Source: a virus. From it: DNA of 22,535 nt. This document shows positions 10,266 to 19,015 of this stretch, piece by piece. The position numbers were made by a program, and so were the translations under genes. The stretch's first letter is position 1. Every line of letters begins with the position of its first letter. The stretch lies in the IMG/VR virus record IMGVR_UViG_3300025120_000616, positions 1 to 22,535 of that record. One strand, given 5' to 3'. The notes under the pieces were generated by a model. That model searched no databases and had not been told where the DNA came from. It saw nothing but the letters and a program-made list of their open reading frames with translations.

Positions 10266-10903
10266 AAGTATTAAATTTATATGCTTGTTTAGGCGGTAAC
10301 AGATTGCTTTGGGATAACTGCCAAGTTACTGCGGTAGAATTAGACGAAGAACTTGCAAGACTATACCAAGAGCGTTTTCCGAATGATACAGTAATTGTAG
10401 CGGATGCACATCAATATTTATTAGACCACTACAAAGAATTTGATTTTATTTGGTCTTCGCCACCTTGCCCAACGCATAGCAAAGTTAGATTTTCGCAACA
10501 TACTAAAGATAGTCATATACCTAAATATCCTGATATGAATTTGTATCAAGAGATTTTATTTTTAGATAATTATTTTAAAGGTAAGTATGTTGTAGAAAAT
10601 GTTATTCCATATTACCAACCTTTAATACCTGCAAAAAAACGAGGTAGACATTTGTATTGGACTAACTTTAATTTACCAACAGATGTCGGAGAAAGAAAAT
10701 TATTTAAAAATATGATTGAATCAGGTAGTATTAAAGATTTATCAATTTTTCATCAATACGATTTTACAAAATATAAAGGAGAGCAAAGAAGTAATAAAAT
10801 TGCAAGAAATTTAGTAGATTTTGAAGTAGGTAAAACCATATTTGATACTGCACTAGGCATAATAGTAAACAAACAAAACACGAATCAATCTAAACTATTT
10901 TAA
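10262..10903 (+). CDS. Short C5-cytosine DNA methyltransferase
   Basis: A 213-residue protein with the m5C methyltransferase motifs in order: motif I LNLYACLGGNRL (4-15) for S-adenosylmethionine, SSPPCPTHS (65-73) with catalytic Cys69, VVENV (110-114) and KKRGRHLYW (125-133) as motif VIII. The C-terminal segment with RSNKIARNLVDFEVGKTI may be a reduced motif X region. Typical family members exceed 300 residues, so the target recognition part is very small. No restriction enzyme is adjacent, so it is an orphan methyltransferase, probably masking phage DNA from host restriction; the recognised sequence is unknown. Starts in ATGA overlap with the preceding gene. Confidence 0.8.
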   Translation: MKVLNLYACLGGNRLLWDNCQVTAVELDEELARLYQERFPNDTVIVADAHQYLLDHYKEFDFIWSSPPCPTHSKVRFSQHTKDSHIPKYPDMNLYQEILFLDNYFKGKYVVENVIPYYQPLIPAKKRGRHLYWTNFNLPTDVGERKLFKNMIESGSIKDLSIFHQYDFTKYKGEQRSNKIARNLVDFEVGKTIFDTALGIIVNKQNTNQSKLF

Positions 10904-10904
10904 T

Positions 10905-11057
10905 ATGAAATGCCCACAATGCAGCCAAACTTTAAATTGGAATGAAAATGAAGAATTTGAAGACTTTGATTTAATAGGTACAGGCATAATTATGAATATG
11001 AACTGCATAAACACGAAATGCAGCGCAGAAGATGTTTACATATTTATTCCCGACTGA
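10905..11057 (+). CDS. 50-residue zinc-ribbon protein
   Basis: The product reads MKCPQCSQTLNWNENEEF, an acidic stretch, then NCINTKCSAEDVYIFIPD. Four cysteines (C3, C6, C34, C39) form a CxxC and a CxxxxC pair, as in a small zinc ribbon. It starts one base after the methyltransferase stop, and its TGA shares a base with the NinG start codon (TGATG). It may bind nucleic acid or a protein partner; no specific role is visible. Confidence 0.6.
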   Translation: MKCPQCSQTLNWNENEEFEDFDLIGTGIIMNMNCINTKCSAEDVYIFIPD

Positions 11058-14903: not shown

Positions 14904-15087
14904 ACCAAAAGCAGGAGAAAAGCGCAGAGATTTTATGGCTAGATGTATGTCTGACAATACGATGGTCAACGAATACGGCAAAGACCAACGCCTAGCAATA
15001 TGCAGCACAAGCTATAAAGACAATTTAAATAAACAAGATGAAAACAGAAGCAGTAAAAATAAAGGAAGTAAAGACAAATCCAAATAA
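14890..15087 (+). CDS. 65-residue protein, PKPKxGE/RCMSD-type
   Basis: Starts MPIPKPKAGEKRRDFMARCM and continues SDNTMVNEYGKDQRLAICST before a Lys/Ser-rich tail. The P-K-P-x-x-G-E...RCMSD...QRLAIC pattern resembles a short domain at the front of many phage head proteins and proteases; here it stands alone. The low-complexity tail is encoded in the 50 bases shared with the methyltransferase gene, so tail sequence is probably shaped by that overlap. Function unknown. Confidence 0.65.
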   Translation: MPIPKPKAGEKRRDFMARCMSDNTMVNEYGKDQRLAICSTSYKDNLNKQDENRSSKNKGSKDKSK

Positions 15088-16312
15088 TCCAAGATTCATA
15101 AAAGACGATAAGTTTAAAAAGCTTGTAAGGTCAATTAAGGAATTCCCGGAGATGTTAGAACTGCGACCAATAGTTGTAGACAAAGACAATATTGTGCTAG
15201 GAGGTAATATGAGATTAAGAGCTTGTAAGGAAGCAGGACTTAAAGAAGTGCATATAGTAAAGGCAGACCAATTAACAGAGGAACAACAAAGAGAATTTAT
15301 TATTAAAGATAATGTAGGCTTTGGCGAATGGGATTGGGATAACTTGGCTAATGAATGGGATACAGAAAAGCTTGAAGATTGGGGTTTAGATTTGCCTTTA
15401 GATTTAGCAGTTGAAGAACTTGAAGCGGAGGAAGACGATTACGAAATGCCTAACGAAATAAAAACGGACATCGTACTTGGCGACTTAATAGAGATAGGAG
15501 AGCATAGATTACTTTGTGGCGATAGTACGGATTCAGACCAAGTTGCTAAATTAATGAATGGAGAAAAGGCAGAATTGCTTTTTACATCTCCTCCTTATTC
15601 AGATATGAGAGAATACAACGGAGAAAAAGACTTATCTATTAATAACCTTGTAGAATTTATACCTACATTCTTGCCTTATGTTGAATATCAAGTAATTAAT
15701 TTAGGTATTCAAAGAAAAGAAAATGATATTATTCAATATTGGGATGATTATATATCTAAAGCTAAATCTTGTGGATATAAGTTGCTAAGTTGGAATACTT
15801 GGATTAAACCAAACGCATCAAGTCTTGGTCAACAAACAGCAATGTTTCCAATTAACATAGAGTTTATTTTTGTTTTTGGAAATTATACTAAGGAATTAAA
15901 TAGGACAATACCTTGCGAACAAGCAGGTAAAGAATACACAAGGCAACAAAGAGCCAAAAATGGAGTAATAAACAAAGGCAAAAAACACAAAAGAAACGAT
16001 TACAAAAAGTTACATTCTGCTATCCTCTTAAATCAAGAAACAAAGCCTTTTGGAAATCACCCCGCACCATTTCCAATTCAATTACCAAGTGAATACATAA
16101 AAGCAATGACAAATGAGAAAAAAACTATATGCGATTCGTTTTTAGGTAGCGGTTCAACAATGGTAGCAGCACACCAACTTAAAAGAAAATGCTACGGAAT
16201 GGAATTAGACCCAAAGTATTGTCAAGTGATAGTAGACCGTATGATGAAGCTTGATAGTGCGTTAGAAGTAAAGATAAACGGTAAACCATACAAAAACACG
16301 AACAATGGCTAA
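15038..16312 (+). CDS. ParB-like domain fused to DNA amino-methyltransferase
   Basis: A 424-residue two-domain protein. Residues 1-95 are a ParB/sulfiredoxin-like domain: VKTNPNNPRFIKDDKFKKLV, RPIVVDKDNIVLGGNMRLRA (43-62) and EEQQREFIIKDNVGFGEWDW. After an acidic linker comes an exocyclic-amine methyltransferase of the beta arrangement: motif IV TSPPY (183-187) precedes motif I DSFLGSGST (366-374) with GMELDPKYC (387-395). SPPY is commonest in N4-cytosine enzymes, but N6-adenine specificity cannot be excluded. Such fusions are frequent next to phage terminase genes and may modify phage DNA before packaging. It overlaps the small terminase gene by 8 bases. Confidence 0.85.
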   Translation: MKTEAVKIKEVKTNPNNPRFIKDDKFKKLVRSIKEFPEMLELRPIVVDKDNIVLGGNMRLRACKEAGLKEVHIVKADQLTEEQQREFIIKDNVGFGEWDWDNLANEWDTEKLEDWGLDLPLDLAVEELEAEEDDYEMPNEIKTDIVLGDLIEIGEHRLLCGDSTDSDQVAKLMNGEKAELLFTSPPYSDMREYNGEKDLSINNLVEFIPTFLPYVEYQVINLGIQRKENDIIQYWDDYISKAKSCGYKLLSWNTWIKPNASSLGQQTAMFPINIEFIFVFGNYTKELNRTIPCEQAGKEYTRQQRAKNGVINKGKKHKRNDYKKLHSAILLNQETKPFGNHPAPFPIQLPSEYIKAMTNEKKTICDSFLGSGSTMVAAHQLKRKCYGMELDPKYCQVIVDRMMKLDSALEVKINGKPYKNTNNG

Positions 16313-17799: not shown

Positions 17800-18555
17800 A
17801 TGAAGTTAGATATTCTACTACCATCGTCACTCTCGGAAATACCTTTAAGCAGGTATCAAGAGTTTATCAATATGAAAGATAATAGTAATGACGAAGAATT
17901 TATTGCACAGAAAATGATACAGATATTCTGTGGAATTAAGTTAGGTGATGTTGCAAAAATAAAGATGAAACACTTGAACGAATTGATAGCACACTTCACA
18001 AAGATATTTAGTGAGAAGCCTCAGTTGGTAAGAAAGTTTAAGATCAAGAATATTGAATTCGGATTCATTCCAAAGTTTGACGATATAAGCTTTGGTGAAT
18101 ATGTAGATTTAGAACACCACTTAAAAGATTGGAAGACGTACCACAAGGCTATGGCGGTTTTATACAGACCAATTAAAAACACGTACAAAGATAAATACGA
18201 AATCGTAGACTACGAACCTACAGAAGAAATGCAGGACTTAATGAAGTTTGCACCTTTAGATGTAGCGATAAGCAGCAGTTTTTTTTTGTCGAATTTAGGA
18301 ATAGAATTACTAAAAGCTATTCCTCCTTATTTGAAGAAAGAAATGAAGACGATGACGAAGGATTCAACCAATTCTCCGAGCGACATCAGTTTGGAAAAAA
18401 TTGGGGATGGTATTCAAGCATCTATGGACTCGCTTCAAACGACATTACAAAGTTTGACGAAGTTACAGGATATAAACTTACTAAATGTCTTACCTATCTC
18501 AGTTTCGTCAAGCAGAAAAACGAAATCGAAGCAAGAGAACTTAAACAACAAATGA
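17800..18555 (+). CDS. Tail assembly chaperone, unshifted (G-like) product
   Basis: A 251-residue protein starting MKLDILLPSSLSEIPLSRYQ, then EEFIAQKMIQIFCGIKLGDV, FIPKFDDISFGEYVDLEHHL and HKAMAVLYRPI. This is the soluble helical pattern of a tail assembly chaperone family in Bacteroidota phages, as I recall it. At codons 161-163 lies a T9 run. After it the unshifted frame continues with LSNLGIELLKAIPPYLKKEM and SLEKIGDGIQASMDSLQTTL, and ends in a Ser/Lys-rich tail. Its stop at 18553-18555 leaves 7 bases to the next gene. The same DNA is also open in the -1 frame (see next entry), as expected for lambda G/GT-type genes. Confidence 0.7.
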   Translation: MKLDILLPSSLSEIPLSRYQEFINMKDNSNDEEFIAQKMIQIFCGIKLGDVAKIKMKHLNELIAHFTKIFSEKPQLVRKFKIKNIEFGFIPKFDDISFGEYVDLEHHLKDWKTYHKAMAVLYRPIKNTYKDKYEIVDYEPTEEMQDLMKFAPLDVAISSSFFLSNLGIELLKAIPPYLKKEMKTMTKDSTNSPSDISLEKIGDGIQASMDSLQTTLQSLTKLQDINLLNVLPISVSSSRKTKSKQENLNNK

Positions 18556-18563
18556 AAAGATAA
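17800..18563 (+). CDS. Tail assembly chaperone, predicted -1 frameshift (GT-like) product
   Basis: If ribosomes slip back one base on T_TTT_TTT (18279-18285), residues 1-162 are joined to 92 residues of the -1 frame, total 254. The -1 frame is open from 18195 and has a protein-like, tryptophan-bearing domain: EDDDEGFNQFSERHQFGKNW, GWYSSIYGLASNDITKFDEV, TGYKLTKCLTYLSFVKQKNE, IEARELKQQMKR. It stops at TAA 18561-18563, sharing its last base with the ATG of the next gene (TAATG), the junction type used elsewhere in this block. Unlike lambda, both products would be of nearly equal length. A missing or extra T in the run from sequencing error would give the same picture and cannot be excluded here. 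Confidence 0.65.
18279..18288 (+). promoter_or_regulatory. Candidate -1 ribosomal slippery site in T9 run
   Basis: T9 at 18279-18287 followed by G. In the zero frame it reads aGT TTT TTT TTG, giving T_TTT_TTT (18279-18285) and overlapping T_TTT_TTG (18282-18288), both of the canonical X_XXY_YYZ form. Transcriptional slippage on nine T is also possible. No clear downstream hairpin was found by eye. Confidence 0.6.
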
Positions 18564-19015
18564 TGGATTATTTCGACTTAATAGACAAACTAAAAACGCA
18601 CTTTGATAATGATGTTCTAGTAAACACCGTTACACAAGGCAACCTGTTCGATGTTGATTTAAACAAGCAGGACATTTTTCCGATGGTGCATTTAATTGTT
18701 AACACCGCCTCGCTTGAATCTAACGTAGTAAGGTACAACATAAGCATCCTTGCAATGGATATTGTAGACATAACAAAAGACGAAACCGTAAGCAAGTTTG
18801 ATGGAAACGATAACGAGCTTTATGTATTGAATACGCAGTTACAGGTATTGACTAGGTGCTACGAACTTTTATTAAGAGGTGACTTATGGTCTGACAAATT
18901 CCAAATAGACGGCAATCCTACTTGTGAACCTTTTGTAGATAGGTTTGAAAACAAGCTTGGCGGATGGACTATGACGTGTGACATTCTTATACCAAACGGA
19001 ATGACAATCTGCTAA
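18563..19015 (+). CDS. Tail completion/terminator-like protein
   Basis: A 150-residue alpha-beta protein: MDYFDLIDKLKTHFDNDVLV, NLFDVDLNKQDIFPMVHLIV, VVRYNISILAMDIVD, NELYVLNTQLQVLTRCYELL, and a C-terminal DRFENKLGGWTMTCDILIPN. The order helix, strands, long helix, strands is that of tail terminator or completion proteins (lambda U-like) that cap the tail tube. Its ATG shares a base with the -1 frame stop of the chaperone gene. It also shares one base with the next start (TAATG). Role inferred from layout and neighbours. Confidence 0.6.
   Translation: MDYFDLIDKLKTHFDNDVLVNTVTQGNLFDVDLNKQDIFPMVHLIVNTASLESNVVRYNISILAMDIVDITKDETVSKFDGNDNELYVLNTQLQVLTRCYELLLRGDLWSDKFQIDGNPTCEPFVDRFENKLGGWTMTCDILIPNGMTIC

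Follow-up and report, generated by a model that had tools for sequence, protein, structure and literature searches.

A conserved run of nine Ts at the junction of two overlapping, selected reading frames in a family of phage tail-module genes is a candidate site of transcriptional slippage

Results and Discussion

A tail-module gene is open in two frames

The DNA analyzed here is a viral sequence of 22,535 nucleotides (IMG/VR record IMGVR_UViG_3300025120_000616; referred to below as the window), in which one gene of the tail module is open in two frames over its 3′ part (Table 1). The -1 frame is open from 18195 to 18563 and contains a run of nine Ts (T9), the first base of which is the third position of a serine codon. 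Across the run, the zero frame reads AGT TTT TTT TTG and the -1 frame TTT TTT TTT GTC, with an in-frame T_TTT_TTT heptamer inside the T9. A shift at this site would give a trans-frame product of 254 amino acids (162 zero-frame codons followed by 92 codons of the -1 frame), and both frames end no more than 10 nt from the next start codon. The two open frames, the T9, the heptamer, the TAATG junction and the nearly equal lengths of the two products (251 vs. 254 residues) were already part of the original prediction for this locus, and their coordinates were confirmed on the window sequence.

Table 1. Features of the two-frame gene and its 3′ neighbor in the window.
Feature	Position	Strand	Remarks
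Zero-frame ORF	17800..18555	+	251 aa; conserved N-terminal domain (up to roughly residue 160) followed by the zero-frame C-terminal extension
T9, putative slip run at the frame junction	18279..18287	+	Only A/T run of at least nine in the window
-1 frame tail	18279..18563	+	94 codons from the run; stop TAA 18561-18563; W-G-W-Y and F-D-E-V-T...K-C-L-T-Y-L motifs
Dual-coded stretch	18288..18552	+	About 88 codons; signs of purifying selection in both frames
Zero-frame stop TGA	18553..18555	+	Closely followed by the -1 stop (18561-18563) and by the ATG of the next gene (18563)
Next gene	18563..19015	+	ATG overlaps the -1 stop (TAATG); relative of P12024L gp42 (phrog_30964)

The length of the T run is conserved among relatives

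A scan of IMG/VR yielded 52 close relatives of the gene, and more came from profile scans and from scans based on the Nonlabens phage P12024L; a profile search of GTDB genomes for relatives found none. Among 126 distinct homologous genes, which reach down to about 27% protein identity, include those of Nonlabens phages P12024L and P12024S and exclude one misparsed entry, the run is T9 in 124 and T10 in two, with no shorter or longer form. Pattern scans permitting other run lengths gave T9 in 59/60 loci, in 28/28 and, in the third scan, in 80/80 among the matches listed (at least 80 loci), with one T10, the three sets overlapping. Forms with T7 or T8 would have shown up in these searches, since the loci were located via the upstream protein or the flanking DNA. 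The proposal of a -1 shift at the T run is supported by more than 100 homologous genes.

A run of nine Ts is prone to error in single reads, and a sequencing error, a pseudogene or a chance overlap could in principle create such a locus. This explanation is scarcely conceivable given that well over 100 contigs and the P12024L genome as deposited share the same run length, and that selection acts on both frames (see below).

The position of the run is less fixed than its length. Clades of two phases (1 and 2) differ by 2 nt in its placement, which by parsimony takes four changes on the tree, at least two of them forced by the starred branches, and the length was held at nine through these moves with the exception of one T10. 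T_TTT_TTT is in frame in both phases. In 85/85 T9 sequences of phase 1, the phase not used by the window, a change of the eighth T to C would be silent in both frames, yet C is seen in none of them; at a comparable site 39 nt on, likewise silent in both frames, both T and C occur. In the window's own clade, each T of the run is also held by the amino acids of one or other frame.

Fewer A/T runs of at least nine occur than chance would give, both in the window (one observed vs. a mean of 7.7 expected from dinucleotide shuffles) and in 550 kb of loci, where few lie off-site and 117 T9 runs were counted for 115 loci, as if slippage-prone runs were avoided. For the window, the deficit suggests that such runs have been avoided and a single one kept.

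The frame junction lies at the T run

Conservation of the -1 frame begins at the T run, with FF, then R.R, then LF or LY, then W.WY, P12024L included, while the -1 frame 5′ of the run is closed within three codons in 33/116 sequences. The window's -1 frame lacks any start-type codon (ATG, GTG or TTG) ahead of an ATG at 18552, close to its end, which indicates that it must be entered by a shift. Taken together, these two observations indicate, at the level of sequence, that the shift point is the T run.

The original prediction considered the first 25 or so residues after the run less protein-like than the zero frame, and suggested that the shift might occur further downstream. The alignments refute both ideas: the FF, R.R and following L-F/Y motifs persist through the family as far as P12024L, and the run is where homology in the -1 frame begins. 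A later shift point was also rejected because point estimates for the -1 frame are already below 1 in the first 25 codons, although the intervals there are wide.

An independent start of the -1 ORF was likewise rejected. The annotation of P12024L treats gp41 as a separate gene, starting at an ATG within a TAATG, and one might suppose that the -1 ORF is generally translated from a start of its own. We regard this as very improbable: besides the lack of an early start codon in the window, a -1 frame ATG is mostly absent from the relatives or close to the frame end, and in P12024L itself conservation starts at the T run, 28 codons 5′ of the annotated gp41 start.

Both frames are under selection over the overlap

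With the -1 protein held fixed, about 7 zero-frame stops would be expected in the 88 codons of the overlap and 0 are present; the probability that the zero frame would stay open over these codons by chance, given the -1 protein and phage codon usage, is 9e-6. The converse probability, that of the -1 frame being open by chance given the zero-frame protein, is 3e-5. Of the Leu, Ile and Val codons that precede a purine, 0/973 end in TA in the overlaps vs. 66/103 in the single-coded -1 tail past the zero-frame stop, counts to be read with the relatedness of the sequences in mind and with the overlap by definition ending at the first stop.

In comparisons of substitutions among homologous loci, a check that the original prediction had proposed, purifying selection was seen in both frames, in three clades. 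For the -1 frame, dNN/dSN in the overlap was 0.22, 0.33 and 0.14 in the three clades, and changes silent in the -1 frame were 2-3.5 times rarer in the overlap than silent changes upstream. For the zero frame, dNN/dNS was 0.59 [0.40-0.80], 0.53 [0.38-0.73] and 0.27 [0.08-0.66], compared to 0.87, 0.67 and 1.25 in a geometry-matched upstream control. The zero-frame values are thus just moderately under the control, and zero-frame constraint is weaker than that on the -1 frame. It is also segmental: counted from the run, codons 0-25 and 45-70 show the strongest constraint and codons 25-45 none. These data support selection on the same DNA in both reading frames for about 90 codons, in keeping with the dual-coded stretch of that length originally predicted.

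The length of the zero-frame extension differs by lineage: it is short in P12024L and its nearest kin and 44-91 codons elsewhere. An AlphaFold2 model of the zero-frame protein (mean pLDDT 79) has an N-terminal domain mostly at 84-93 per ten-residue block, followed by a helix at 153-190, a gap of low pLDDT at 192-200, a second helix at 199-223 and a disordered end. The segmental constraint fits the predicted helices at 153-190 and 199-223; the model is supporting rather than independent, since its alignment carries the shadow of the -1 frame.

The zero-frame extension might also have no function as a protein and be kept open merely to spare most ribosomes an early stop, for reasons of polarity, mRNA stability or coupling through the TAATG. 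The two window stops so close to the next start codon, the weaker constraint on the zero frame and its short form in P12024L would all agree with this. We nevertheless consider it unlikely: the zero-frame stop precedes the -1 stop by 20-30 codons in many lineages, so that coupling to the next gene is not general, and the amino-acid constraint on the zero frame is segmental in a manner that matches the predicted helices.

Polymerase slippage and ribosomal frameshifting as routes to the second product

We propose that a single tail-module gene with one start codon would give two proteins that share their N-terminal part and differ in their C-terminal part. Standard reading would yield the 251-aa protein, composed of the N-terminal domain and the helical zero-frame extension, while RNA polymerase would slip on the nine Ts and add one U to part of the transcripts. 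It is on the sequence that we infer both the slippage and polymerase as its agent, and we hold a two-product gene with polymerase slippage at the T9, rather than a ribosomal shift, to be somewhat probable. Programmed transcriptional slippage is recognized by an A/T run of about nine whose length is conserved among homologs, and the T9 has both properties. Such slippage would also yield mRNAs with bases gained or lost. In vivo, runs of nine As or Ts support efficient slippage (PMC5009743), and Baranov et al. considered a run of 9 As or Ts with its length conserved among homologs very likely to be used for slippage (PMC1088944).

A programmed -1 ribosomal frameshift on T_TTT_TTT, in an unaltered mRNA as in lambda G/GT, would yield the same trans-frame protein and is a real possibility, albeit one to which we give rather less than an even chance. 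The in-frame heptamer has the X_XXY_YYZ form that marks such shifts and occurs in the window's clade as well as in the other phase; moreover, the eighth T is the last base of the A-site codon, and the ribosome too may be sensitive to it. Ribosomal shifts to the -1 frame are used by known tail chaperones (PMC5009743), and 7% frameshifting was measured in tests of a phage tail chaperone cluster (PMC3711429).

Several observations are harder to reconcile with a ribosomal agent. Seven Ts are all that the heptamer needs, so that runs of T7, T8 or T11 would do equally well, yet just T9 and, rarely, T10 are found; the run switched phase and still kept nine; and the doubly silent eighth T is never C, though T_TTT_TTC should remain slippery. 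A downstream stimulatory RNA structure, which is frequent but not obligatory for -1 ribosomal frameshifting, was not found in 22 sequences (mean folding z of 0.04, 0.20 and 0.02 for three stretches, pseudoknots being outside the model). The conserved length, the 2-nt move that still gives nine, the unchanged doubly silent T and the lack of RNA structure make polymerase a more likely agent than the ribosome, and the rarity of other A/T runs of nine also favors it. Thus, of the lambda-like shift originally proposed, the -1 shift itself is supported, whereas for its ribosomal agent the length and evolution of the T9 favor, short of proof, polymerase instead.

Slippage runs of this kind are known from bacterial genes. 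In Shigella mxiE, two overlapping ORFs are joined once polymerase adds a base in a U run, and the slippage run of Thermus dnaX is nine long (PMC1088944; PMC5009743). In contrast to these two, the T9 gene belongs to a phage tail module, both of its C-termini are selected over a long overlap, and slippage is deduced from sequence. A search of the open literature found no papers on slippage in phage tail genes.

A probable tail chaperone pair

Lambda gpG/gpGT suggest, by analogy, a role for the pair as tail-assembly chaperones in a set ratio, and we think it likely that the two products work like a tail chaperone pair. As in lambda and other siphophage -1 frameshift chaperones, there would be two products with a common N-terminal domain and a short second, C-terminal domain in the -1 frame, encoded in the tail module; at the level of sequence, the shared N-terminal domain and -1 shift are reflected in the T run and the conserved -1 tail. 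The lambda shift sits near the 3′ end of g (PMC5009743), whereas here the zero frame continues for about 90 codons beyond the shift and is under selection there as well. The T9 gene further differs from lambda-type chaperones in its length-kept run of nine Ts, in having no significant sequence match to a known chaperone family and in not being adjacent to the tape measure gene. Lambda-type chaperones are further marked by binding to the tape measure and the tail tube, by their absence from virions and by a fixed ratio of the two products.

The lambda-type gene lies directly upstream of the tape measure, which is not the case here. The gene order is large terminase, T9 gene, then relatives of a Neck1/tail completion protein (P12024L gp43, phrog_5), with the tape measure further along on the same strand: P12024L gp40/41 are several genes away from the tape-measure gp50, tape-measure-like matches lie about 6 kb downstream in two related contigs (G002 and G004), and the window ends before its tape measure. 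No curated tail-chaperone family in Pfam was matched significantly (Phage_TAC_7 gave E = 0.12 in one member), and of the phrogs only phrog_166 'tail protein' was matched, in 6 members (best E 6.8e-4). Comparison with PDB structures gave no match at E <= 0.001 for either the -1 tail model (pLDDT 68) or the zero-frame protein, the BFVD matches of the latter were uncharacterised phage proteins, and tblastn of the -1 tail against deposited phages gave no match. Membership in a named chaperone family is therefore not established, with neither tape-measure adjacency nor a clear match to a known chaperone family, and the tail chaperone label attached to the gene at the outset is retained as a proposed function.

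Flavobacterium phage 6H (L198) was considered as a bridge to a known chaperone and rejected, the resemblance being weak and lacking a T9. Its gene at 10352-10927 on the minus strand is a weak structural relative of the N-terminal domain. An unannotated open frame (YPGLGMKGVLLSMAESGVYGPEQG...) follows this gene before the next one; 6H may perhaps have a frameshift chaperone with a different slip site.

A close known counterpart is in P12024L, where gp40 and gp41 have the homologous N-terminal domain and -1 tail, an exact T9 and the same place after the large terminase. They differ from the window gene in that the zero frame ends about 25 codons past the run, making the overlap short, and in being annotated as two hypothetical genes. 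In JQ823123 (P12024L), positions 23946-24640 (L054:2926-3620), gp40 corresponds to the zero frame of a single T9 frameshift gene and gp41 to its -1 tail. Phages carrying the T9 gene probably infect Bacteroidota, a host assignment drawn from P12024L (Nonlabens/Persicivirga) only.

Frameshifts in tail chaperone genes are textbook cases of ribosomal recoding. In a large family of phages whose hosts are probably Bacteroidota, a polymerase slip run appears to take the place of the ribosomal shift and to come with a long, doubly selected overlap. Our tentative proposal, which we rate a little short of an even chance, is that this widespread family sets the ratio of two chaperones at the level of the transcript, through polymerase slippage at the T9, with some 50-90 codons encoding two alternative C-terminal domains, both of them selected. 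The standard product would then be a second full protein and not a mere truncated form. The way in which the chaperone ratio is set becomes testable in one cultured phage, P12024L; with such genes annotated as two unrelated hypothetical proteins, the family has escaped notice.

Elsewhere in the window, a single ORF at 15038-16312 seems, when read by eye, to fuse a ParB-like N-terminal part to a DNA methyltransferase-like part.
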